From Archangium violaceum (GTDB taxonomy: Bacteria > Myxococcota > Myxococcia > Myxococcales > Myxococcaceae), in NCBI RefSeq assembly GCF_016859125.1, contig NZ_CP069338.1:8745501-8809500 (forward strand): a stretch of 64,000 nt of DNA, written 5' to 3'. Of the stretch, positions 6,151-45,933 are shown piece after piece. Within the stretch, counting starts at the first letter, position 1, and the number at the start of each line of letters is the position of its first letter. Under the pieces are notes generated by a model, which had not been told where the DNA came from, did not search any database, and saw only the letters and a program-made list of their open reading frames with translations. Both the position numbers and the translations under genes were made by a program.

Positions 6151-6690
6151 CTACTGCTTCGCCGTGGGGGCGCTCGTGGACAGCTCCTTGAGCCAGTTCG
6201 CCAGCGACTCCGGATCGATCGGCCCCACGTGCTTGCCCCGGATGATGCCCTGCGCGTCGATGAAGTACGTCTCCGGCACGCCGGCCACGCCGTAGTCCAC
6301 CGCCACCTGCGAGTTGGGATCCACCAGCTGGGGGAAGCTCGCGCCCATCTGCGACAGGAACCGCCGCGCGTTGTCCTCGGTGTCCTCGAAGACCATGCCC
6401 AGGAACTGGGCCTGGCCGCCGAACTCCCGCGCGCCCCACTCGAGTACCGGGTGCTCCATCTTGCAGGGCCCGCACCAGGACGCCCAGAAGTTGATGACCA
6501 CGGGCCGGCCCTTGAGCTCGTCCAGGCTCACCCGCATCCCGCTGTTCAGCGCCCGCAGCGTGAAGGGCGATGCCGGCTGGCCCTTGAGCATGAAGGGCAC
6601 CTCGCGCGGGTTGCTGCCGAAGCCCTTGTAGAGCACCGCCAGCAGGCCCAGGCACACGACGACGAAGCTGAGCGTGACGCGCCATTTCAT
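6151..6690 (-). CDS. ccmG: CcmG/DsbE-type thiol-disulfide oxidoreductase
   Basis: Membrane-anchored periplasmic thioredoxin-fold protein (179 aa) that reduces apocytochrome c cysteines or the heme-ligation machinery. One N-terminal helix (about residues 5-22) acts as an uncleaved anchor. The active site is WCGPC (Cys 73 and Cys 76) after VVINFWAS, and the cis-Pro loop is GVPETYFID. The ATG overlaps the ccmF stop by 4 bp (ATGA), so it is translated as part of the ccm operon. TlpA/ResA proteins share these motifs; position within the ccm genes favours CcmG. Confidence 0.9.
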   Translation of the reverse strand: MKWRVTLSFVVVCLGLLAVLYKGFGSNPREVPFMLKGQPASPFTLRALNSGMRVSLDELKGRPVVINFWASWCGPCKMEHPVLEWGAREFGGQAQFLGMVFEDTEDNARRFLSQMGASFPQLVDPNSQVAVDYGVAGVPETYFIDAQGIIRGKHVGPIDPESLANWLKELSTSAPTAKQ

Positions 6691-8711
6691 GCCGCACCCC
6701 GATTCATCTCACCACCCGCCTCGGGCGGAGCACCCGCCGCCGGCGTCTCGGCCTGCGCCACCGCGCGCGCCTTCCGCGACGGCCACAGCGCGATCAGCGT
6801 CCCCAGCACCAGCACGGGGATGCTCCACCAGATCCACCCCACCAGCGGGAAGATCCACGCGTTGAAGCTCGCCGTGCCCCGCTCCTCGGAGAAGGCCATC
6901 AGCGACAGGTAGAGGTCTTCCTTCACCGTCTCGCGCACCGCCGGCGTGCCCACCGGATCCGTCATGCGCTCGTAGTAGTTCATCCGGGGTGCCATCTCGC
7001 TGACGCTGCCGTCCGGCGCCGTCACCTGCACCCGCGTGGCCATGTAGGTGCGGTGCGGCTCCTGGCCGCTGGTGAGCCCCAGGTACTTCACCTGGTAGTC
7101 GCCCACCTTGAGCGTCTCGCCCTGGCGCACCGTGCCCGAGGTGTGCGTCACGTACGCGGACGAGCCCGCCACGGCCACGAAGATGATGACGATGCCCAGG
7201 TGCACGATGTAGCCGCCGAAGCGCCGCCGCGCCTTGGTGGCGCTGCCCACGAGCGCCGTGACGAAGCCCTCCTTGCGCTCGCTCATCCGCACCTTCACCG
7301 GCAGCGCCAGCTCGCGCAGGGTGATGACGGTGACGAAGCCCGCCAGTCCGAAGGTGAGCAGCGGGTAGAAGCCCCTCAGCCCGCCCGCCAGGCACGCGCC
7401 CACCACCGCCAGGCCCACCGCCGCCGGCACCCAGAAGCGCTCGCGCACCATCTTCGGATCCGAGCTGCCCCACGGCAGCATCGGGCCCACGCCCATCAGG
7501 AACAGCACCATCACACCGCCGGGCACCGCCATCTTGTTGAAGTACGGCTCGCCCACGCTCACCCGGATGCCGCGCACGGCCTCGGAGATGAGCGGGTAGA
7601 GCGTCCCCAGCAGCACCGTGAAGGTGATGGCCACGAACACCAGGTTGTTCACCAGCACGGTGGCCTCGCGCGACAGCATCGACTTGAGGCTGCTCTCGGC
7701 CACCAGCAGGTGCCCGCGCGTGGCCAGCAGCGCGATGGACACGAACAGCAGCACGGCGATGAACACCAGGAACGTGGGGCCGATGTCCGACTGCGTGAAG
7801 CTGTGCACCGAGTTGAAGATGCCGCTTCGTGTCATGAACGTGCCCAGGATGGTGAGCACGAAGCTGGAGAGCACCAGGCTCAGCGTCCACAGCTTCAGCA
7901 TCTTCTTGCGCTCGTGCACCAGTGTGGAGTGCATGAACGCGGTGGACGTCAGCCACGGAAGGAAGGACGCGTTCTCCACCGGATCCCACGCCCAGTAGCC
8001 GCCCCAGCCGAGCACCGCGTACGCCCACCACGAGCCGAGGATGATGCCCACGGACAGGAACAGCCACGCCACCAGCGTCCAGCGGCGCAGGGGCGCCATC
8101 CACGCGTCGCCCATCTCCCCGCGCAGCAGCGCGGCCACGCCGATGCCGAAGGGCACCGTCATGCCCACGTAGCCCAGGTACAGCATGGGCGGGTGGATGA
8201 TCATCAGCCAGTGGTTCTGCAGCAGCGCGTTGGGGCCCGGCCCGTCCATGGGCACCGGTGACACCGTGTGGAACGGGTTGGCCGGCCCGGCGATCAGGAA
8301 GGTGAAGAAGACGCCCACCGCCAGCATGGTGCCCAGCGCCAGGGACATGTAGCGCGCGTGCTCGCGGCGGTGCACCACCGCGAAGGCCAGCACGTACGTG
8401 CCCATGATGAGGCCCCAGAAGAGGATGGAGCCCTCGAGCGCGCTCCACAGCGAGACGATCTTGAAGACCGTCGGCGTGGCGCGGCTGCCCACCTGCGCCA
8501 CGTACTGGACGCTGAAGTCGTTGGTGAGGAGCGCCCACTCCATCACCACGTTGGCGCTGAGCATGCAGGCGAAGAAGCCCCACACGCAGCGCATCACCCA
8601 CGGGAAGGCCGCGTCGTCGCGGCGCATCCCACCCACCAGGCCCACCAGCGCTCCGAAGCTCGCGAACGCGAGCCCCCCGAGCACCAGCCCGTATCCGAGC
8701 GTGCTGTTCAC
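6687..8711 (-). CDS. ccmF: Cytochrome c heme lyase subunit CcmF
   Basis: Large inner membrane protein (674 aa, about 15 helices) of the system I heme lyase that attaches heme to apocytochrome c. The tryptophan-rich WWD domain is seen as WGGYWAWDPVENASFLPW near residue 235, with conserved histidines in flanking loops (for example NHWLMIIHPP). The start is a GTG whose last two bases belong to the ccmE TGA (GTGA overlap), and its stop overlaps ccmG by 4 bp. No CcmH is present in the window. Confidence 0.96.
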   Translation of the reverse strand: MNSTLGYGLVLGGLAFASFGALVGLVGGMRRDDAAFPWVMRCVWGFFACMLSANVVMEWALLTNDFSVQYVAQVGSRATPTVFKIVSLWSALEGSILFWGLIMGTYVLAFAVVHRREHARYMSLALGTMLAVGVFFTFLIAGPANPFHTVSPVPMDGPGPNALLQNHWLMIIHPPMLYLGYVGMTVPFGIGVAALLRGEMGDAWMAPLRRWTLVAWLFLSVGIILGSWWAYAVLGWGGYWAWDPVENASFLPWLTSTAFMHSTLVHERKKMLKLWTLSLVLSSFVLTILGTFMTRSGIFNSVHSFTQSDIGPTFLVFIAVLLFVSIALLATRGHLLVAESSLKSMLSREATVLVNNLVFVAITFTVLLGTLYPLISEAVRGIRVSVGEPYFNKMAVPGGVMVLFLMGVGPMLPWGSSDPKMVRERFWVPAAVGLAVVGACLAGGLRGFYPLLTFGLAGFVTVITLRELALPVKVRMSERKEGFVTALVGSATKARRRFGGYIVHLGIVIIFVAVAGSSAYVTHTSGTVRQGETLKVGDYQVKYLGLTSGQEPHRTYMATRVQVTAPDGSVSEMAPRMNYYERMTDPVGTPAVRETVKEDLYLSLMAFSEERGTASFNAWIFPLVGWIWWSIPVLVLGTLIALWPSRKARAVAQAETPAAGAPPEAGGEMNRGAA

Positions 8712-9199
8712 TGAGTCCTCGCCGCCGCCGCCGTGGTGGCTTCCTGCTTCTGCATCTCCTCGAACATCTTCTTCACGTCGTCATCCGTCTTGGGCGCCCG
8801 GTACTCGTTGGAGTGGTTCACCATGAGCCGGCTGCCCTGGAAGACCTGGGACTTGTCGAAGGTGCCCTCCACCACCACGCCGATGCGCTCGCGGAACATC
8901 TGCGGAGGCACCTCGGTGGTACGCACCAGCACGTGCGCCGCGCCGGGCTCCTCGCTGTCCATCACGCGGAAGTGCAGGGTGGTGTGCTGCTCGTTCCACT
9001 GGATGCTGCCCGGCTGCACCTGGCCACCCAGGCGGATGGTGGGGCCATAGGCCTTCTCGCCCTGGGCCATCATCTCCGAGGGCCTCCAGTAATAGACGAG
9101 GTTCTCACCGATGTTGCCGAAGGCCACCAGCGCCAGGCCGGCTCCGGCCACCAGCAGGGCCACCACGGCGATGAGACGGTTGCGCGTCTGCTGCGTCAT
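8708..9199 (-). CDS. ccmE: Heme chaperone CcmE
   Basis: Periplasmic heme chaperone (163 aa) that carries heme covalently from CcmC to the CcmF lyase. It has one N-terminal membrane anchor (about residues 8-28) and an OB-fold domain. The heme-binding HxxxY motif is His129-Ser-Asn-Glu-Tyr133, so this is the classic histidine type rather than the cysteine variant. The C-terminal tail is rich in Ala, Thr and Gln and is probably disordered. The AGGAG ribosome binding site lies inside the end of ccmD, and the stop overlaps ccmF. Confidence 0.95.
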   Translation of the reverse strand: MTQQTRNRLIAVVALLVAGAGLALVAFGNIGENLVYYWRPSEMMAQGEKAYGPTIRLGGQVQPGSIQWNEQHTTLHFRVMDSEEPGAAHVLVRTTEVPPQMFRERIGVVVEGTFDKSQVFQGSRLMVNHSNEYRAPKTDDDVKKMFEEMQKQEATTAAAARTQ

Positions 9200-9373: not shown

Positions 9374-10188
9374 CAGGCCACCTCCGAGGCACGGTTGTCA
9401 CGCGGGGCGGGCGCGTCCGTGGGGAGCGCCTCGGGCAGGGCCACCTCCGCCTCGCGCCGGGCGAGGGCGATCCGGTAGCGGTGCAGCAGGAAGAGGGTGA
9501 GGAGGATGAGCGAGGCCCAGGCGTTGACGCGCAGTGACAGCACCATGTCCGGGTCCACCGTCTTGGGCGTCGACTGCACCTGGTGCAGGCTGCGCCACCA
9601 CTTCACCGAGAACCACACGATGGGCAGGTTGACGAAGGAGATGATGCCCACCACGGAGCTCCACACCGCGCGCTTCTCGGGATCCTCCACGAAGCCGCGC
9701 AGGGCCACGTACGCCACGTACGTCACCAGCATGATGGCCATGGCCGTGAGCCGCGGATCCCAGTCCCAGTAGGTGCCCCACGTGGGCTTGCCCCAGATGG
9801 CGCCCAGCACCAGCCCGTAGGCCCCGAAGAGCAGCCCCACCTCGGCCGTGGACTCCGCCAGCGCGTCCGTCTTCCAGCTCGTATGGAGCAGGTACGCCAC
9901 GCAGCAGCAGAAGTTGACCGTCAGCGTCAGCATGGCCATCCACATGGCCGGCACGTGCACGTAGATGATGCGGTAGACGTCCCCCATCTCCCGCTCGGGT
10001 GGCGTCCACACCAGCCCCAGGTACGAGCCAATGCCCAACAGCAGCAGGGCCGCCGCCGTCATGACCAGCAGCGCGGGCTTCGCGTTGTACCTCGATCCGG
10101 GAGGCGCCCACTTCATGCCCAGCCGGACGCCCATACCCACAGACGCCAGCGCCGCCGCCGCCGAAACCACCTGCAGCACCGTGTTCAT
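9373..10188 (-). CDS. ccmC: Heme exporter/transferase CcmC
   Basis: Six-helix inner membrane protein (271 aa) that, with CcmABD, loads heme onto CcmE. The WWD motif WGKPTWGTYWDWDPRLT lies near residues 135-151, and conserved histidines lie in RIIYVHVPAMW and at the far side of the domain. A strong AGGAGTGAGG ribosome binding site precedes the ATG. The C-terminal ~25 residues are a charged, proline-rich extension. It follows ccmB by 16 bp and overlaps ccmD by one base. Confidence 0.95.
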   Translation of the reverse strand: MNTVLQVVSAAAALASVGMGVRLGMKWAPPGSRYNAKPALLVMTAAALLLLGIGSYLGLVWTPPEREMGDVYRIIYVHVPAMWMAMLTLTVNFCCCVAYLLHTSWKTDALAESTAEVGLLFGAYGLVLGAIWGKPTWGTYWDWDPRLTAMAIMLVTYVAYVALRGFVEDPEKRAVWSSVVGIISFVNLPIVWFSVKWWRSLHQVQSTPKTVDPDMVLSLRVNAWASLILLTLFLLHRYRIALARREAEVALPEALPTDAPAPRDNRASEVA

Positions 10189-10204: not shown

Positions 10205-10900
10205 TCAATCCTCGATGACCCGGGGGAACAGGACGAATCCCAGCCCCCAATAAATCAGATTGAACCCGAATAGCAGCCCGTACCATGAGCCCAGCTGATT
10301 CATCGGGTCACCCTGCAACACGAGCGATGTCGCCTTCGCGGCGGCGAGCAGCGCGGGAATGATGAGCGGGAACAGCAACAGCGGGAGCAGCACATCTCTT
10401 GCCCGCGCATTGCTCGCGATGGCCGAATACACCGTGCCCGGCGCGCTGATGGCCATGCAGCCGAGCACCAGGGTGGTGGCGAAAGCTCCCACCCCCATGG
10501 ACACGTTCACCGCGTAGAGGGCCACCATCACCGGGATGAGCAGGGCGCCCAGCAGTATCAGCAACAGGGCGTTGCCCAGGGCCTTGGACAGGAAGATGGC
10601 GCGCGCGTCCGCCGGGGCCAACCGCAGCCCGTCCAGGGTGAGGTTCTCCTGCTCCACCCGGAAGGACTCGCCCAGCGCGAGCACGCTGGCGAAGAGCAGC
10701 GCCAGCCACAGGTAGCCGCCCGCGTTGCGCGCCAGCACCTTCGTGTCCGGACCCACCGCGAAGGAGAACAGCAGCAGCGTGGCCAGCGCGAAGAAGATGA
10801 GCGCGTTGAGGCGCGCGCGCGTGCGCCATTCGATCAGCAGATCCTTGGCCAGCAGCACCCCCACCGTTTTCAGCAGGGAGATGGGACGTGGCTTCCTCAT
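10205..10900 (-). CDS. ccmB: Heme exporter ABC permease CcmB
   Basis: Membrane subunit (231 aa, six helices) of the CcmAB transporter whose ATP hydrolysis frees holo-CcmE. The ATG at 10900 encodes MRKPRPISLLKTVGVLLAKD and overlaps the ccmA stop by 4 bp (ATGA); a longer frame upstream would run into the ccmA end and is not used. The conserved amphipathic start (AKDLLIEWRTR) and the ESFRVEQENLTLDGLRLAP loop identify the family. Confidence 0.94.
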   Translation of the reverse strand: MRKPRPISLLKTVGVLLAKDLLIEWRTRARLNALIFFALATLLLFSFAVGPDTKVLARNAGGYLWLALLFASVLALGESFRVEQENLTLDGLRLAPADARAIFLSKALGNALLLILLGALLIPVMVALYAVNVSMGVGAFATTLVLGCMAISAPGTVYSAIASNARARDVLLPLLLFPLIIPALLAAAKATSLVLQGDPMNQLGSWYGLLFGFNLIYWGLGFVLFPRVIED

Positions 10901-11562
10901 GCCGCCACCGCCCGGCCTTCCTGCAGGTGCAGGCGCTCCTCGCACAGGGACATGCCCTGCTCGATGAGGTGCGTGGCCAGGACGACGGTGACACCCGTGT
11001 CCTTGAGCTCGCCGATGATCTTCTCCATGGCCTGGATGCCGGCCGGGTCCAGCTCGCCGAAGGGCTCGTCCAGCAGCGCGAGCGCGGGAGCCTTCATCAG
11101 CAGCCGGGCGATGGCCAGACGCTTGCGCATGCCCGCGGAGAACTGGCGCACCGGGCTGTCCGAGCGCTTCGTCAGCCCCACCTTGGTGAGCAGCGCCCCG
11201 GCCACGTCCGAGGGCGAGTCCATCCCGAGCAGCCTCGCCAGCACCACCAGGTTCTGGTGCGCGGTGAGATCCTCATAGAGGAAGCTCGCGTGGGAGAGGA
11301 GGGCCACCTCGCGGCGCACCGTCTCGCGCTGCGTGACGCAGTCGTTGCCGAGCACCTCCACCCGGCCGTGGGTGGGGGTGAGCGCGGTGCCCACCAGTCT
11401 CAGCAGCGTCGTCTTGCCGGAGCCGTTGTGACCCGTGAGGAGCAGGGAGCGGCCCGGGGGGAGGGTGTAGCTGAGGCGCGCGAGTGCCCAGCGACGTCCA
11501 TATCGCTTGCTGACATCGTGGAGGACGAGCGCGGGAGGAGGCGCTGCGGTGGGGGCATCCAT
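10897..11562 (-). CDS. ccmA: Heme exporter ABC ATPase CcmA
   Basis: ATP-binding subunit (221 aa from this start) of CcmAB. Walker A is GHNGSGKTT, the signature is FSAGMRKRLAIARLL, and Walker B is LALLDEPFGELD, followed by the H-loop LATH. The ATG at 11562 (MDAPTAAPPP) was preferred to an in-frame GTG at 11598, but neither has a good ribosome binding site, so the start is open. It is the first gene of the ccm operon; the promoter must lie in the 450-bp divergent region shared with the polysaccharide cluster. Confidence 0.9.
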   Translation of the reverse strand: MDAPTAAPPPALVLHDVSKRYGRRWALARLSYTLPPGRSLLLTGHNGSGKTTLLRLVGTALTPTHGRVEVLGNDCVTQRETVRREVALLSHASFLYEDLTAHQNLVVLARLLGMDSPSDVAGALLTKVGLTKRSDSPVRQFSAGMRKRLAIARLLMKAPALALLDEPFGELDPAGIQAMEKIIGELKDTGVTVVLATHLIEQGMSLCEERLHLQEGRAVAA

Positions 11563-12014
11563 CGGCGGGAGCGTTCGTAACTGGAAACTTCCCCACACTC
11601 CAGCGAAAGCAAGCCGGGCTGCTCGGTTGGGGGCCAGGAGATGTGGCCCTGAAGCGCCCGGGAGGAGAGTGGGGTGGGAGGAGCCCTATTGCTCCTGGAT
11701 GGGAAACACCGTGGCACGCGGAAAGTGGAAGTTTTTTCAATTCCCTGACCCCATCTTCCGTCCTGGGTGGGGGCGGGAGCACCTGGGTTGCCAGGAAAAG
11801 CGGCCCTTGTCCTCGATGGAACGGAAGATCTTTCGAACCACTGGCTCCGGACCTGCAACGGACCTACCCGGTGGGCGTCGCGGATGGGAACGGACTTACC
11901 GTCAACAGTGACTCGGACTTCCAGACAGAGACCCGCTGGGCGGATGGCACTCCGAATGCAAACCTCCTCGTCCGGGGAAGCATGGGCGGCGGCGTCATCT
12001 GGGAGGAAGTCGCA
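11563..12014. other. Divergent control region between ccm and polysaccharide genes
   Basis: About 450 bp separate the two divergent operons. The only clear signal is a sigma-54 promoter match at 11945-11960 facing the deacetylase gene. A T-rich patch (GTTTTTTCAATT near 11731) is lower in GC than its surroundings. A long open frame through this region toward the deacetylase (from 11643) has no ribosome binding site and reads as low-complexity, so I treat it as non-coding. Confidence 0.55.
11945..11960 (+). promoter_or_regulatory. Sigma-54 (-24/-12) promoter
   Basis: TGGCAC-N5-ATGCA matches the sigma-54 consensus TGGCAC-N5-TTGCA at 10 of 11 fixed positions. The essential GG (11946-11947) and GC (11958-11959) are separated by exactly 10 bases. 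It lies 55 bp upstream of the ATG at 12015, reading into the polysaccharide genes. Myxobacterial surface-polysaccharide and developmental genes are often driven by sigma-54 with NtrC-type activators; no activator gene is in the window. Confidence 0.65.
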
Positions 12015-13202
12015 ATGGTGGACATGCGGGGAACGGTGAGGCGGGCGATGAAATCAGCGGCGGCGGGGGTGCTGCACCACAGCGGCCTCCGTAAAGCCCT
12101 GGCGGCCTACAGGAGGTACCAATCCGGTGGGCGCCGCATCCTGATCGTCAGCTATCACCGTGTGGTGGGGGACTTCACCGGAGAGTTGCAGCGCTCCATC
12201 CCGGGGCTGCTCATCTCCCAGGAGACATTCCGCGGGCACCTGGAGGGACTCTCCGCAGCCGGTTACGAGTTCGCTTCCCTCGGGGACGCGCTGGACGTGA
12301 TGGCCGGACGCCGGACGGCCCGCAGGGATCTGTGTGTCGTCACCTTCGACGACGGCTACCGGGACGTGTACCGGTACGGCTACCCCGTCCTGAAGGAGAT
12401 GGGCGTGCCGGCCATCATCTACCTGCCGGCGGCGCTCATCGGCACCAACGAGCGCTTCCATCATGACCGGCTCTTCCACCTGCTGCGGCTCGCGCAGGCC
12501 CGGGGCTACCAGCCGTTGTTCGACGTGATGCCCAAGCCCGCCACGGAGCTGCTGGACACGGTGCTCTCCGGCCGCAAGCGGCTGTCCGCGGCGCTCGACG
12601 ACTTCATCGGCCAGTACTCCTCCTCCACGCTCGCGGAGACCATCCAGGTCCTGGAGGAGAAGCTCGGCCCCGGTCCGGACCTGCTCCCCGAGCAGGGTGA
12701 TCTCATGGACTGGGACGAAGTGCGGCGCATGGTGAAGGACGGCTTCGAGTTCGGCGCGCACACCCTGGGACACGTGGTGCTGACCCACGAGCCGATCGAG
12801 GTGGTGGAGCGCGAGGTGTGCGAGTCCAAGGCCCTCATCGAGCGCGAGGCCGGCATCACCGTGCGCGACTTCGCCTACTGCAACGGCTGGTACTCGGACG
12901 ACCTCATCCGCATCCTGGTGCGCAACGGGTTCCGCTCGGCCGTGACCACCGAGGACATGCCCAACCGCATCGGAGGGGATCCCTTCACCCTCAAGCGCAA
13001 GGTGCTCTGGGAGAACTTCAGCCTGGGCCTGACGGGTGGGTTCTCGCGGAGCCTCACCGTGTGCCAGCTCGACGACTGCTTCGGGACGCTGGGCATGCGT
13101 GAGCCCGTGCCCGGCCGGCGCCCGCAGCGCTTAGCGGTTCCGACTCCCACCAACACCAACACCCTGCGGCTGGACGGCCCGCCGGAGGAGGTGACCTGGT
13201 GA
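12015..13202 (+). CDS. Polysaccharide deacetylase (NodB family)
   Basis: A 395-aa protein of carbohydrate esterase family 4, likely removing N-acetyl groups from a sugar polymer or precursor. The catalytic/metal Asp pair is in VVTFDDGYRDVY (about residue 110), and the metal HxxxH in HTLGHVVLTH (about residue 250). No signal peptide is seen, so it probably acts inside the cell or at the membrane face. GGAGGAAG six bases before the ATG at 12015 fixes this start; the open frame extends further upstream without support. Its TGA overlaps the flippase GTG (GTGA), making it the first gene of the polysaccharide operon. Confidence 0.9.
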   Translation: MVDMRGTVRRAMKSAAAGVLHHSGLRKALAAYRRYQSGGRRILIVSYHRVVGDFTGELQRSIPGLLISQETFRGHLEGLSAAGYEFASLGDALDVMAGRRTARRDLCVVTFDDGYRDVYRYGYPVLKEMGVPAIIYLPAALIGTNERFHHDRLFHLLRLAQARGYQPLFDVMPKPATELLDTVLSGRKRLSAALDDFIGQYSSSTLAETIQVLEEKLGPGPDLLPEQGDLMDWDEVRRMVKDGFEFGAHTLGHVVLTHEPIEVVEREVCESKALIEREAGITVRDFAYCNGWYSDDLIRILVRNGFRSAVTTEDMPNRIGGDPFTLKRKVLWENFSLGLTGGFSRSLTVCQLDDCFGTLGMREPVPGRRPQRLAVPTPTNTNTLRLDGPPEEVTW

Positions 13203-14746
13203 ACGGGAAACCGGACACCCCCGTGCCCGCGGCACCCGCCGCACCCGCGGTGCCCGCCTCCTCGTTCCTGGGGAAGGCGGGACCCCTGGTTCTCGCCCGG
13301 CTGTTCACCGCCGGGCTCACGTTGTCCATTCCACTCGTCCTGGCGCGGGTGTTGAGCCTGGAGGAGTACGGCACCTACTACCAGCTCTTCCTCATCGCCA
13401 CGACGCTCTACTACGTGCTGCCCTTCGGGGTGGTGCAGAGCCTCTACTACTTCCTGCCCCGGTCCGAGGAGAAGCGGCCCTGGCTGGGGCAGACGTTGCT
13501 CTTCATGTCCGCCGCCGGGGTGGTGGCCGCGGGCTTCGTGTGGGCGCTGCTCGGGCCCGTGGCGAACCACTTCGACAACCCGGCGCTGCTCGCGCACCGG
13601 GGGACGCTCGCGGCCTACACCGCCTTCCTGCTCGGCTCCTTCCCGTTGGAGATCTCCCTCACCAGCCAGGGCCGCACGAAGCAATCGGCGCTCGCCTACC
13701 TGGTGTCGGATGCCCTGCGCGCGGCCTCCATGGTGGTGCCGTGCCTGCTGGGCTTCGGCCTGCACGGGATGATGCTGGCGGTGGCGGGCTTCGCCTTCAT
13801 TCGCTACCTGGCCGCCTGGGTGGTGGTGCCCCGGGGGACGAGCGGTCCGCTGCTGCGCCCGGGGCTGTGGCGCCAGCAGCTCGTCTACGCGGCTCCGTTC
13901 GGCGCGGCGATGGCGCTCGCCATCCCCCAGCAGAACGCCCACCTCTACATGGTGGCGGGCGCGGTGGCCCCGGCGCTCTATGCCCTCTACCGCGTGGGGT
14001 GCTTCCAGCTCCCGGTGGTGGATCTGCTCTACACGCCCACCAGCGAGGTCCTCATGGTGCGCCTGGGTGAGCTGGACAAGCAGGGGCGCCTGGAGGAGGG
14101 CGTGGTGGCCTTCCGCGAGGCCGCGGGCAAGCTGGCCTTCGTCTTCCTGCCCTTCGCCGCGTTCCTCTTCGCCGCGGCCCCCGAGTTCATCGGGGCCCTC
14201 TTCGGCGCGAAGTTCCTCCCGGCCGTTCCCATCTTCCGGGTGAGCGTGGTGGGCGTGGTGCTCGCCATCCTTCCCATGGACGGTGTGCTGCGTGCCCGCG
14301 GGCACACCCGCGCCATCTTCCTGTCGTACCTGCTCAAGGCGGTGGTGACGGCGCCACTCGTCTGGTTCGGCGTGAAGTGGTTCGGGATGATGGGCGGCGT
14401 CGTGTCCTGGGCCGTGGCCGAGGTGGTGGGCAAGGGCGCGCTGCTCGTCCGCGTGCCCGCGGCACTGTCCACTCCCGCACGGACCCTGCGCATCCGGGAC
14501 ATCATTCCCTGGCGCGAGCTGGGCAAGGCGTCACTGGCGGCCGTGGCCGCCGCGGCGAGCGTCTTCCTGTTGCGCGTCGCCCTGGTGCACGCCTGGAGCG
14601 GTCTGCCCGAGGGCCTCGTCTGGAGGGCCCTGCCACTCGCGGTGGCCGGCGCGCTGTTCGCCATGGGCTATGTGGGGGTGCTGTACGCCACGGGGGTGAG
14701 GCCCCTGCGGCTGCTCGGCGGCCTACGCGCTCGTCGCGCGGCGTGA
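13199..14746 (+). CDS. Polysaccharide flippase, Wzx/MATE-like
   Basis: A 515-aa protein with about 12-14 transmembrane helices. Its opening, FLGKAGPLVLARLFTAGLTL followed by IPLVLARVLSLEEYGTYYQL, is characteristic of Wzx-type flippases of the MOP superfamily, which move undecaprenyl-linked oligosaccharide units across the inner membrane. The first ~20 residues are Pro/Ala-rich. The GTG start overlaps the deacetylase stop. Flanking sugar-modifying and glycosyltransferase genes support a surface polysaccharide role; the polymerase (Wzy) is not in the window. Confidence 0.88.
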   Translation: MNGKPDTPVPAAPAAPAVPASSFLGKAGPLVLARLFTAGLTLSIPLVLARVLSLEEYGTYYQLFLIATTLYYVLPFGVVQSLYYFLPRSEEKRPWLGQTLLFMSAAGVVAAGFVWALLGPVANHFDNPALLAHRGTLAAYTAFLLGSFPLEISLTSQGRTKQSALAYLVSDALRAASMVVPCLLGFGLHGMMLAVAGFAFIRYLAAWVVVPRGTSGPLLRPGLWRQQLVYAAPFGAAMALAIPQQNAHLYMVAGAVAPALYALYRVGCFQLPVVDLLYTPTSEVLMVRLGELDKQGRLEEGVVAFREAAGKLAFVFLPFAAFLFAAAPEFIGALFGAKFLPAVPIFRVSVVGVVLAILPMDGVLRARGHTRAIFLSYLLKAVVTAPLVWFGVKWFGMMGGVVSWAVAEVVGKGALLVRVPAALSTPARTLRIRDIIPWRELGKASLAAVAAAASVFLLRVALVHAWSGLPEGLVWRALPLAVAGALFAMGYVGVLYATGVRPLRLLGGLRARRAA

Positions 14747-14863
14747 TCGCAAGGCATCGGACTTTCGGACATATGGACAGTGGACGGTGCGGGGCCCAGG
14801 GGGGTCCCGCCCTGGAAGGCCGGTACCTAGCTTGGGAAACCGTTCAACCAGGGGAGAGGCGTG

Positions 14864-15391
14864 ATGGGCATCGATGCGATGACGTTGTACAGGATGGGGC
14901 GCAAGCTTTACCTACGGGGTGTCCCCGTATTGCCTGCCGTGCTGCGCAAGGCCATCCACTTCCTGCACGGCTCCTACATCCCGGTCGAGGCTGAAATCGG
15001 CGAGGGGACGCAGATGGGCTACGGCGGCATGGGCATCGTCATCCACAAGGATGCGCGCATCGGCCGGCACTGCCTCATCTCCCACCAGGTGACGATTGGT
15101 GGACGCTCGGGGCTCAAGGATCTGCCGGTCATCGGCGACTATGTGCGCATTGGCGCGGGCGCGAAGATCCTGGGCAACGTCCGCATCGGGGATTTCGCCG
15201 TCATCGGTGCCAACGCCGTGGTGGTGAGGGATGTGCCCCCAGGCACGGTGGTGGGTGGCATTCCGGCGCGGGAGATCCGCAAGGATCCGGATCCGCTCGC
15301 CGCCTACGAGCGCGAGATGGGACTGCGCCCACCGGTGCGGCGTCCCGAGGCGGTGCCGTCCGTTCCTCCGCCGGCATCCGCCGCGCGGTAG
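14864..15391 (+). CDS. Serine acetyltransferase-like hexapeptide-repeat acyltransferase
   Basis: A 175-aa left-handed beta-helix protein. Repeats run from about residue 45 to 135 (GEGTQMGYGGMGIVIHKDAR, IGRHCLISHQVTIGG, IGDYVRIGAGAKILGNV, IGDFAVIGANAVVV). The His in ISHQVTIGG fits the catalytic His of the CysE-type family, yet the short N-terminus and context suggest O- or N-acetylation of a polysaccharide rather than cysteine synthesis. GGGGAGAGG precedes two start options; the ATG at 14864 has better spacing than the GTG at 14861. About 117 bp separate it from the flippase gene. Confidence 0.85.
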   Translation: MGIDAMTLYRMGRKLYLRGVPVLPAVLRKAIHFLHGSYIPVEAEIGEGTQMGYGGMGIVIHKDARIGRHCLISHQVTIGGRSGLKDLPVIGDYVRIGAGAKILGNVRIGDFAVIGANAVVVRDVPPGTVVGGIPAREIRKDPDPLAAYEREMGLRPPVRRPEAVPSVPPPASAAR

Positions 15392-15409
15392 TCAGGGGGA
15401 GAGCCGCGC

Positions 15410-16471
15410 ATGAGAGTGCTCCTCGTTGGAGACTATCCGCCACCCCACGGTGGCGTGGCCGTGCACGTCCAGCAGCTCCATGGGTACCTGCGCGAGCGCG
15501 GGGTGGAGACGGTGGTGCTGGACATCGGGAAGGGAGGGCGGCCGGCTCCGGACGTCATTCCCGTCCGGACGCCGACGCAGTATGGCAAGAGGCTCGCGGG
15601 CTTCCTCCGCGAGGGGTGGACCGTCCACGTCCACACCAGCGGCAACAACCCGAAGTCCTGGATGCTCGCCGCCACCGCCGGGGTGAGGGCGCCACGCTCC
15701 CCGCGCGTCATCACGCTGCACTCGGGGCTGCTGCCGGAGTACCTGGCCGCCTCCGTGTCGCGGCGGGCCTTCGCGCGGGTGGCGCTGGCCGGCTACTCGC
15801 GCGTGGTGGCCGTGTCCGAGGCGGTGCGCGATGCGCTCGCGCGCTGCGGCGTTCCGGAGGAGAAGCTCGTGGTGTACCCGGCCTTCTGTGGCTCGCAGGT
15901 GCGGCCGGGGTCCGTGACGCAGGCGGTGCAGGAGGCGCGCATCCGCCGCCGGACGCTGCTGGCCATGGCGCACCATCCCTCTCCCGTCTACGGCCGGGGG
16001 CTGATGTTCCGCGCGCTGCGGATGCTCGCCAACGAGCTGCCCGGCGTGGGGCTCGCCGTCTTCGGGCCGGGGACCCGCTCGGAGGCGTTCCTGCGCGATG
16101 CGCGTGAATGCCAGGTCGAGGAGCTCCTCGAGGACATGGGCGAGCTGGAACATTCGCAGGCGCTGGCGCTGATCTCGCGCTGCGATGCCTTCGTGCGGCC
16201 GACCACGCACGACGGCGATGCCATCTCCGTGCGCGAGGCGCTCGCGCTCGGCGTGCCATGCGTGGCCAGTGACGTGTGCGGGCGGCCCCATGGGACGTAC
16301 ACCTTCCGCGCGGGCAACGCGGTGGACCTGGCGGATCAGGTGCACCGCGCGCTCGAGCACGGGCCCGCACAGGTGGTGTCACCGGACGCGGGTCCGGTGC
16401 TGCTGAAGCTGTACGGCGAGTTGTCGCAACCGGTGGTTCTGGGTGGAGGCGAGACACATGCGGCGCAGTGA
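15410..16471 (+). CDS. Glycosyltransferase family 4-like
   Basis: A 353-aa GT-B fold enzyme that presumably adds a sugar from a nucleotide donor to the growing repeat unit. The N-terminal RVLLVGDYPPPHGGVAVHV is the classic first beta-strand and glycine loop of GT4 proteins. The C-terminal half has RPTTHDGDAISVREALALGV, the donor-binding EALA motif (with D-A-I-S-V-R-E rather than the usual E-x7-E spacing). GGGGGAGAG precedes the ATG. Its end overlaps the next glycosyltransferase by 14 bp. Confidence 0.88.
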   Translation: MRVLLVGDYPPPHGGVAVHVQQLHGYLRERGVETVVLDIGKGGRPAPDVIPVRTPTQYGKRLAGFLREGWTVHVHTSGNNPKSWMLAATAGVRAPRSPRVITLHSGLLPEYLAASVSRRAFARVALAGYSRVVAVSEAVRDALARCGVPEEKLVVYPAFCGSQVRPGSVTQAVQEARIRRRTLLAMAHHPSPVYGRGLMFRALRMLANELPGVGLAVFGPGTRSEAFLRDARECQVEELLEDMGELEHSQALALISRCDAFVRPTTHDGDAISVREALALGVPCVASDVCGRPHGTYTFRAGNAVDLADQVHRALEHGPAQVVSPDAGPVLLKLYGELSQPVVLGGGETHAAQ

Positions 16472-17660
16472 GGAAATGGATCTGGCCCGCCGGGCCCTGC
16501 GTGGCAGGGACCTGGTGGTCTTCTCGAACGATTGGGATGGGGATCCGCTGTCCAAGGTCCACATCATGCGGATCCTCTCCCGGGACAACCGGGTCCTCTG
16601 GGTGAACAGCATCGGGAACCGGGCGCCCAAGGCCAATGCGCACGACGTGAAGCGCATCTGGAAGAAGCTGTCCTCGTTCACCGAGGGCATCCGCGAGGTG
16701 GAGCCCAACCTCTTCGTGCTCGCCCCGCTGGCGGTGCCGTTCTACGGCTCGGAGGCGGTGCGCGCCTTCAACCGCACGCTGCTGCGGGCCCAGGTGCTGC
16801 GCGCCATGCGGCGGCTGCACTTCAAGCGGCCCATCTCCTGGTCCTTCCTGCCGGCCTCGGCGCCGGTGTCCGGGCGGCTGGGCGAGGAGTTCGTCGTCTA
16901 TCACTGCGTGGACGAGTTCTCCGCCTTCAGCGACACCAACGGGCGGCACATCGCGGAGCTGGAGGAGCAGCTGCTGCGCCGGGCGGACCTGTGCATCACC
17001 TCGGCGGACCGGCTCCGGGACAACAAGGTGCGCGTCAACCCGAACACGGTGCTGGTGCGCCACGGCGTGGACTTCAACCACTTCGTGAAGGCGTGTGATC
17101 CGTCCACGCCCATTCCGGAGGACATCGCGAAGCTGCCCAGGCCCATCTTCGGCTTCTTCGGGCTGGTGGCGGACTGGGTGGACCTGGAGGCCATCGCCGC
17201 GACGGCGCGGGCGCACCGCGAGGGCTCGGTGGTGGTGATCGGCAAGGTGGCGCCGGACGTGGATCCGTCGGTGCTGACGGCCGAGCCCAACGTCCACATG
17301 CTCGGGCGCAAGGCGTACTCGGAGCTGCCGGGCTACTGCCGCGCCTTCGACGTGGCGCTCATGCCCTTCAAGGTGAACGAGCTCACGCTCAACGCCAATC
17401 CGCTGAAGGTGCGCGAGTACCTGGCGGCGGGCCTGCCCGTGGTGTCCTCGGACATCCCCGAGGTGCGCAAGGTGGGTCTGTGCAAGCTGGCGAGCGACAC
17501 CGAGGACTTCGTCCGGAAGGTGGACGAGTGTCTGGCCGAGGGCGCTGGCCCCTCCCGCGAGCGCGCCGAGCGCATCCGCCACGAGAGCTGGGAGGCCAAG
17601 GTGGAGGAGATCCGCGGCTTCGTGGGCGAGGCCATGGTCAAGGCCGGACGGAGCCTGTAA
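16458..17660 (+). CDS. Glycosyltransferase, GT-B type
   Basis: A 400-aa protein beginning MRRSEEMDLARRALRGRDLV, with FSNDWDGDPLSKVHIMRIL and later FGFFGLVADWVDLEAI, LMPFKVNELTLNANPLKVRE and EYLAAGLPVVSSDIPEV, the typical C-terminal donor-binding part of GT4-like enzymes. This family often sits in exopolysaccharide loci. The ATG at 16458 is preceded by GGAGGCGAG; the upstream in-frame GTG at 16443 is less likely. It is the last gene of the cluster. A polar stretch replaces the first glycine-rich loop seen in its neighbour. Confidence 0.86.
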   Translation: MRRSEEMDLARRALRGRDLVVFSNDWDGDPLSKVHIMRILSRDNRVLWVNSIGNRAPKANAHDVKRIWKKLSSFTEGIREVEPNLFVLAPLAVPFYGSEAVRAFNRTLLRAQVLRAMRRLHFKRPISWSFLPASAPVSGRLGEEFVVYHCVDEFSAFSDTNGRHIAELEEQLLRRADLCITSADRLRDNKVRVNPNTVLVRHGVDFNHFVKACDPSTPIPEDIAKLPRPIFGFFGLVADWVDLEAIAATARAHREGSVVVIGKVAPDVDPSVLTAEPNVHMLGRKAYSELPGYCRAFDVALMPFKVNELTLNANPLKVREYLAAGLPVVSSDIPEVRKVGLCKLASDTEDFVRKVDECLAEGAGPSRERAERIRHESWEAKVEEIRGFVGEAMVKAGRSL

Positions 17661-44888: not shown

Positions 44889-45407
44889 ATGCGCGTCCTC
44901 CTGAAATCCCTGGTGCCCGTCTGTGTCGTGGCGGCCGCCGGCTGCTTCATCTCCGAGAACGCCGGGCCGGGACATGCCTGCTCGGACGACTCCGAATGCC
45001 CCGAGTCCTACCGCTGCGTGACGGTCTCCGCGGGCCAGGCCTCCTGCGAGGTGATGTACCCCCCTCGCCCCCAGGAGACCGACGCGGGCACTTCCGACGC
45101 CGGGCCGGTGCCCACCTGGTGTCAGGACATCCGGCCCGTCCTCGCCGCCAGCTGCGTGTCCTCGTGCCATGGCGCGGACACGACGGGCAGTGGCAACTCG
45201 AGCTTCCGGTTGGATATGTACGAGGCCAGTGGCGGGGTGCTCGGGGCCCGGGACATGGCCGCGCGCCTCAAGGCCCGCGCCGTGGATCAACAGACGATGC
45301 CGCCCGCGGACGCGGGCGTCCCCGCTCCCTCGGAGGCCCAGCGGGAGCTCCTCACGCGGTGGATCGCTGGCGGTACTCCGTTCTGCTCCGATGGTGGTAC
45401 TCCGTAG
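44889..45407 (+). CDS. Lipoprotein with cytochrome-like CX3CH motif (copy 1)
   Basis: A 172-aa lipoprotein (LVPVCVVAAAGC, lipobox AAGC). After the lipid Cys comes a small Cys-rich module (HACSDDSECPESYRC). A cytochrome c-like domain follows: TWCQDIRPVLAASCVSSCHG, GNSSFRLDMYEASGGV and TMPPADAGVP. The layout is that of planctomycete-type cytochromes (xIxPILxxxCxxCHG ... MPP), but the heme motif reads C-VSS-CH, with three residues between the cysteines instead of two. Whether heme is attached is therefore open. It is followed 7 bp later by a paralogue of identical length. Confidence 0.72.
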   Translation: MRVLLKSLVPVCVVAAAGCFISENAGPGHACSDDSECPESYRCVTVSAGQASCEVMYPPRPQETDAGTSDAGPVPTWCQDIRPVLAASCVSSCHGADTTGSGNSSFRLDMYEASGGVLGARDMAARLKARAVDQQTMPPADAGVPAPSEAQRELLTRWIAGGTPFCSDGGTP

Positions 45408-45414
45408 GGCACCC

Positions 45415-45933
45415 ATGAACCGCATCCACCTGAGCCTCCTGGGCCTCTGCGCCGCCGCGGTCGCCGGCTGCACCATCGAGGCCCCCGACTTCTCCGGCAA
45501 GTCGTGCGCCTCCATCGCCGATTGCCCCAAGTCCTATACCTGCGTCGCGGCACGTCCGGGCGCGGGGCGCACCTGCGAGGTGCTCAACGCGCCCGGTGTC
45601 ACCGACCCCAACGACGGGCCGGTGCCCACCTGGTGCCAGGACATCCAACCCATCCTCGCGGCCAACTGCGTGTCCTCGTGCCACGGGGCGGACACGAGTG
45701 GGAGTGGCCGGGCCGACTTCCGGTTGGATATGTACGAGGCCGATGGGGGTGTGGCCGGAGCGAAGCTGATGGCGCCCCGCATCCATGCCCGCGTCGTCAC
45801 CTATCGCGACATGCCGCCCCCCTCGAGAGGTCTCCCCGAGCCCACCGAGGATGAGCGCTCCCTCATCGACAGATGGGCGTCCGGGGGTTCTCCCTCCTGC
45901 GATGATGGCGGAACCCCCGACCCGGGGACCTGA
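45415..45933 (+). CDS. Lipoprotein with cytochrome-like CX3CH motif (copy 2)
   Basis: A 172-aa paralogue of the preceding gene (same length, roughly half of residues identical by eye). Lipobox VAGC, Cys-rich module SCASIADCPKSYTC, then VPTWCQDIQPILAANCVSSC-HGADTSGSG, FRLDMYEADGG and RDMPPPSRG. The CX3CH spacing is the same as in copy 1, so it is a conserved feature and not an error. A tandem duplication followed by divergence of the N- and C-terminal ends is the simplest history. The two are probably co-transcribed. Confidence 0.72.
   Translation: MNRIHLSLLGLCAAAVAGCTIEAPDFSGKSCASIADCPKSYTCVAARPGAGRTCEVLNAPGVTDPNDGPVPTWCQDIQPILAANCVSSCHGADTSGSGRADFRLDMYEADGGVAGAKLMAPRIHARVVTYRDMPPPSRGLPEPTEDERSLIDRWASGGSPSCDDGGTPDPGT

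Follow-up and report, generated by a model that had tools for sequence, protein, structure and literature searches.

Covalent attachment of heme at a motif with three residues between its cysteines is already known from an archaeal protein, as excerpts of the study of MmcA from Methanosarcina acetivorans report covalent heme, by mass spectrometry, at a natural CXXXCH motif (PMC11024163). Among bacterial proteins, text passages on ImcH and some CymA homologues describe putative atypical CX3CH motifs (PMC6295460), and portions of surveys of iron oxidisers and Desulfovibrionaceae count CX3CH as a possible heme site (PMC10734462, PMC5566968, PMC11434368). TfcP of Myxococcus xanthus is noncanonical and, according to extracts of its description, heme-bound when purified from E. 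coli (PMC8833165). For the Ccm maturation machinery (System I), sections of a review state that CXXCH only, or little more, is recognised, that altered spacing gives a faulty link in E. coli, and that an extra sulfur is reported to lie between the Cys and the heme when the spacing is altered (PMC3601427). Dedicated heme lyases exist for CXXCK and CX15CH, as part of a further source indicates (PMC10663686). The proteins described here bear on the way in which a bacterial heme lyase recognises its substrate. Judging by titles and the opening of abstracts, we found no description of such proteins among the papers listed for CX3CH/CXXXCH and for myxobacterial cytochromes in the open full-text literature, a body of work to which most subscription journals do not belong.

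Results

A tandem gene pair for putative lipoprotein cytochromes

The window (the whole 64,000-nucleotide stretch of DNA that was analysed) belongs to a 12.68-Mb Archangium violaceum genome held on one contig. The initial annotation had described tandem, paralogous 172-aa lipoproteins at 44889-45933, and we found two ORFs of exactly this kind, here called A and B, separated by 7 bp (counted) and encoding proteins with 51% identity across an alignment of 175 columns (Table 1). Both have the same build, in which a signal peptide and a lipobox with Cys19 come first, and a linker joins the Cys-rich N-terminal part to a C-terminal domain containing CVSSCH and MPP. The signal peptides and lipoboxes, judged by eye from the sequence, supply the export feature expected of a class I c-type cytochrome. 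In five same-genus genome comparisons, dN was 0.139-0.165 and dS 0.31-0.50, indicating purifying selection on the two genes. Their neighbours encode a mannosyltransferase-like protein, an M19 dipeptidase and lipoproteins of no assigned function, and give no clue to the role of A and B.

Table 1. Features of the A/B gene pair and of the cytochrome c maturation (ccm) genes; coordinates are positions in the window.
Feature	Coordinates	Strand	Basis
A, putative lipoprotein cytochrome, 172 aa	44889..45407	+	ORF from ATG through stop; homologues in order
A lipobox AAGC, predicted lipidation at Cys19	44934..44945	+	by eye
A extra Cys, 11 before motif, proposed disulfide partner	45120..45122	+	co-occurrence with C-terminal Cys
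A putative heme motif CVSSCH (CX3CH)	45153..45170	+	C, C, H conserved among relatives
A MPP, proposed distal Met ligand	45297..45305	+	MPP in 104/105 domains
A C-terminal Cys, proposed disulfide partner	45384..45386	+	co-occurrence with upstream Cys
B, putative paralogous lipoprotein cytochrome, 172 aa	45415..45933	+	ORF from ATG through stop; 51% identity to A
B lipobox VAGC, predicted lipidation at Cys19	45460..45471	+	by eye
B extra Cys, 11 before motif, proposed disulfide partner	45634..45636	+	co-occurrence with C-terminal Cys
B putative heme motif CVSSCH (CX3CH)	45667..45684	+	C, C, H conserved among relatives
B MPP, proposed distal Met ligand	45811..45819	+	MPP in 104/105 domains
B C-terminal Cys, proposed disulfide partner	45898..45900	+	co-occurrence with upstream Cys
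CcmG/DsbE-like thioredoxin	6154..6690	-	TIGR00385 best, just below cut-off
CcmF, sole heme lyase subunit of its type found in genome	6690..8711	-	
CcmE	8711..9199	-	PF03100
CcmC	9376..10188	-	PF01578 over cut-off; TIGR01191 best but below cut-off
CcmB	10208..10945	-	PF03379
CcmA	10900..11598	-	TIGR01189 over cut-off

Conservation of the motif and of its proposed distal Met

A CX3CH string alone is weak evidence, since a six-frame scan of the window (ORFs of at least 60 aa; 100,590 residues) returned five such strings, those of A and B included, together with one CX2CH string. The alignment of relatives comprised 27 A-like and 36 B-like proteins that have a motif; the motif-less truncated copies L027, L031, L046 and L047 were set aside, and rows below 40 bits, including truncated L032, were left out. 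The CVSSCH and downstream MPP that had been noted in both copies were located in A and B, and the two motif cysteines, the His, the Gly that follows it, MPP and an upstream Cys were identical in 63/63 of these A/B-type proteins, all of which carry the motif.

In a wider family of 105 filtered domains, both cysteines and a His directly after the second are present in every domain, with CX3CH in 68 and CX2CH in 37, and the motif is followed by MPP in 104 and by MPL in the remaining one, so that each has a downstream Met in the proposed distal position. This filter could show motif-less rows, and none appeared; the set consists of distinct domains, omitting partial, identical and <30-bit matches (L053, whose motif is CVAGCH, and several rows of the CX2CH type among them), truncated copies and the duplicate loci L002, L040 and L043, and it takes in only part of the weak matches from the order and phylum searches described below. 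Motif and MPP are separated by a median of 43 residues in the CX3CH and CX2CH classes alike. In 64 rows hand-picked from the 105 for spread, invariance is limited to the columns for C, C, H, M, P, P, a single W and a single G. All 68 CX3CH rows come from the window's own family (Myxococcaceae), and CX2CH is the motif in all 14 rows that represent other families of the order or phylum. As A, B and the other CX3CH domains (68/105) depart from the exact CXXCH spacing, we file A and B as variant rather than canonical class I c-type cytochromes.

The CX2CH relatives align along the whole length, including a tandem pair of like build in G085 (CAVCH, CISCH), and three diheme relatives (L044, L118, L119) have CGPCH, CSPCH and CTVTCH at one shared (second) site. 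Lipoproteins with two heme motifs, of which the first is CX3CH (CVFTCH, CLGTCH), occur at L118:826-1215 and L119:717-1076 (-), where they adjoin A/B-type genes.

The initial annotation had left the choice between heme at a non-standard site and a disulfide, the latter to be favoured by homologues that had lost His or Met while keeping the cysteines. None of the 105 domains is of this kind, and the comparison supports the heme side. In the competing explanation the motif cysteines would form a structural or redox disulfide without heme, the heme having been lost when the spacing changed. The Cys-rich character of these lipoproteins, with their other likely disulfides, fits this explanation, as does the faulty product that passages of the System I review report for Ccm with altered spacing (PMC3601427). 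A disulfide needs neither His nor Met, however, and both, although free to drift in that case, are retained in 68/68 CX3CH domains; moreover, the same site is CX2CH or CX3CH among relatives. We consider a disulfide at the motif quite improbable. From the alignments, heme at CX3CH is a likely assignment for A and B, in which we have good confidence, and it is favoured by the ordinary CX2CH that relatives have at the same position.

A different pair of cysteines already behaves like a disulfide. One lies 11 residues before the motif and the other near the C-terminus, and of the 105 domains 87 have both, 15 have neither and 3 have one alone. Within the CX2CH rows the corresponding counts are 20, 15 and 2 (p 1.5e-8, a value that is too optimistic because the rows are related). 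This covariation, which also argues against a disulfide at the motif, suggests that the extra pair probably forms a disulfide linking the first and last helix; the CX3CH motif would therefore be left free for heme. A CX14CH motif using the upstream extra Cys was also considered and rejected, as that Cys is absent in 17/37 CX2CH relatives.

Fold and profile matches

AlphaFold2 (pLDDT 82.8 with the mature protein, 93.9 with the domain alone) predicts a long first helix with the motif at its end, another helix ahead of MPP and a final helix. The best match of the full-length model is PccH (4rlr; Z 6.9 over 77 residues, rmsd 2.2), a middling score of a size that can reflect a common arrangement, and its N-terminal part weakly resembles small cystine-rich folds (Z up to 4.5). 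For the domain model, a VIA list of 30 chains gave hydrazine synthase alone (Z 4.5), with PccH absent, and Foldseek searches with the two models gave nothing at E <= 0.001.

The initial annotation had assigned the pair a planctomycete-type cytochrome frame. The frame itself, CXnCHG followed by MPP, is present, but the corresponding models match A and B below their cut-offs only: PF22297 (PccH) gave 14.5 bits for A and 17.2 for B against a gathering score of 24.4, and PF07635 (PSCyt1) gave 14.6 bits against 22. NCBIfam profiles did not match A or B, nor did phmmer with A against the PDB, where the best match of the family profile was again PccH (E 0.026, not significant at 0.001). Among 68 family members, Pfam matches at E <= 0.1 were to PccH in 50 and to Cytochrome_CBB3 in 26. 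The inserted motif residue would lower the Pfam, NCBIfam and phmmer scores of A and B.

Cys, His and Met are general copper ligands, and the conserved set could in principle be a site for copper or some other metal rather than for heme. We regard this as extremely improbable, since relatives have CXXCH at these positions and the top structural match is a cytochrome. With the residues required for heme retained in intact relatives, A and B are very probably genuine, if unusual, heme proteins.

Maturation genes in the genome

The window also contains a run of ccm genes (Table 1). Across the genome we found one CcmF_C match (E <= 0.001), one CcmH and no ResB, the gene content expected of System I (Ccm). 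A single Ccm machine would accordingly have to deal with both spacings. We looked for a second heme lyase dedicated to CX3CH and did not find one in this genome, where the CcmF_C match at E <= 0.001 is single; a third Cytochrom_C_asm match falls within a frame of 373 aa that, judged by eye, resembles CcsA/HemX. Across 96 genomes of the family, CcmF_C matches number one in 91, none in 3 and two in 2. Both matches of G049 lie inside one 725-aa frame, and those of G128, which holds CX3CH proteins, lie on two contigs and may represent a second CcmF-like gene.

A search of the genome with PF13442 (E <= 0.1) recovered 21 other cytochrome regions, 12 of them over the cut-off, with CX2CH motifs only. 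A and B themselves escaped this model, which shows that part of the CX3CH class is invisible to it, and for the same reason its result does not allow A and B to be called the genome's sole CX3CH proteins. The family profile (E <= 1e-6) found A and B only.

The initial annotation had also held that standard CcmFH handles such a site poorly. That claim agrees with what parts of the System I review say of E. coli Ccm with altered spacing, and these parts give it no backing beyond E. coli (PMC3601427). Within the heme assignment, attachment through one Cys or an abnormal persulfide bridge is an unlikely variant. The same review mentions the additional sulfur, and the title of its reference 45 contains "cysteine persulfide linkage" (PMC3601427, in part), but both cysteines are present in 105/105 domains, unlike a one-Cys site, and in the excerpted MmcA data all seven motif peptides, including CXXXCH, gain ~615.17 Da (PMC11024163). 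Returning to heme at CX3CH more generally, we suggest only tentatively that one CcmF/CcmH pair forms correct heme c, with two thioethers, at CX2CH and CX3CH alike, or else a natural persulfide-linked heme at CX3CH.

A/B-type genes lie 13.4-45.5 kb from ccmF in 36/36 genomes with both on one contig, a count that omits G088, G090, G092, G119 and G128 (different contigs) and the remnants in G103 and G115. Beside ccm, window positions 11643-17654 encode a deacetylase, a flippase-like protein, a hexapeptide transferase and glycosyltransferases, in an order largely kept across the compared genomes. We considered a functional link between A/B and the ccm operon and rejected this proximity as evidence for it, as these polysaccharide genes adjoin ccm and the gene order is kept also in G103, which has a remnant only.

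Distribution, losses and tree

Searching with A, we obtained matches at E <= 0.001 in 71/145 genomes of the order. Strong matches are mostly tandem pairs, and weak matches are to other, mostly larger cytochromes, through which alone part of the 71 genomes match. A profile search of the phylum matched 99/195 genomes at E <= 1e-6, weak relatives included. As 74/145 genomes are without a match, the role of A and B is not essential; it is probably accessory, with some relatives lacking one or both copies.

Degraded copies were also observed. At L027, L031 and L032 (G108, G094 and G109, respectively), the A copy retains its lipobox and Cys-rich N-terminal part and stops at the linker, so that its heme domain is missing and B follows directly. 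B-like remnants that start shortly ahead of MPP and extend as far as the C terminus occur at L155:8465-8608 (G103) and L047:2243-2398 (G115), the former at the syntenic place.

In the family tree, the CX3CH rows fall on one branch (97/90) together with 4 CX2CH rows. The motif spacing requires 3 label changes and many forks are open, so that a single gain followed by losses and several gains of CX3CH are indistinguishable. The tandem copies at L019 (G083) are each other's nearest relatives (100/88), which suggests a recent duplication or gene conversion.

Discussion

From these analyses, we propose that A and B are envelope lipoproteins carrying one heme each, as variant c-type cytochromes. Each would be exported and then lipidated at Cys19, and the genome's Ccm (System I) would attach heme covalently at the CX3CH motif formed by Cys89, Cys93 and His94 (A numbering). 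The iron would be ligated by His94 on the proximal side and by Met137, the Met of MPP, on the distal side, and a predicted Cys78-Cys166 disulfide would tie the first helix to the last. The domain may then act as a membrane-tethered carrier of electrons between periplasmic or membrane partners.

What is new here is a fixed CX3CH motif in a bacterial, apparently single-heme (as predicted), His/Met cytochrome of a System I genome. Because altered spacing in E. coli is reported, in parts of the System I review, to give a faulty link (PMC3601427), A and B are a good natural test case. They are a cleaner test object than multiheme proteins, being small and having one motif in which the longer spacing is naturally fixed, with ordinary-spacing relatives alongside and one CcmF found in the genome. 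On the tentative suggestion made above, Ccm in this family of myxobacteria would accept a wider range of substrates, and a natural persulfide-linked heme at CX3CH, if true, would amount to a new type of heme linkage for a native protein. The family is also a warning that searches for CXXCH only can overlook real cytochromes.

Among known systems, PccH of Geobacter sulfurreducens (4rlr; PF22297) resembles A and B as the best structural match of the full model and in its single heme, which is predicted for A and B; its motif is CX2CH, unlike theirs, and the match starts at model residue 55, past the Cys-rich N-terminal part of the A/B-type protein. PSCyt1 (PF07635) shares the frame CXnCHG ... 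MPP, although A and B fall below its cut-off and the PSCyt1 family motif is CX2CH. TfcP is likewise a noncanonical myxobacterial cytochrome with a single motif, but, in the parts of its description cited above, that motif is CXXCH with a distal Cys, placing the variation in the other ligand. ImcH and the CymA homologues share with A and B an atypical CX3CH in bacteria, predicted from sequence, but differ, in the passages cited, in having several heme motifs and transmembrane segments. MmcA is like A and B in its natural CXXXCH, with covalent heme that in A and B is predicted, and, as excerpted, it differs from them in carrying seven hemes and in its archaeal Ccm.
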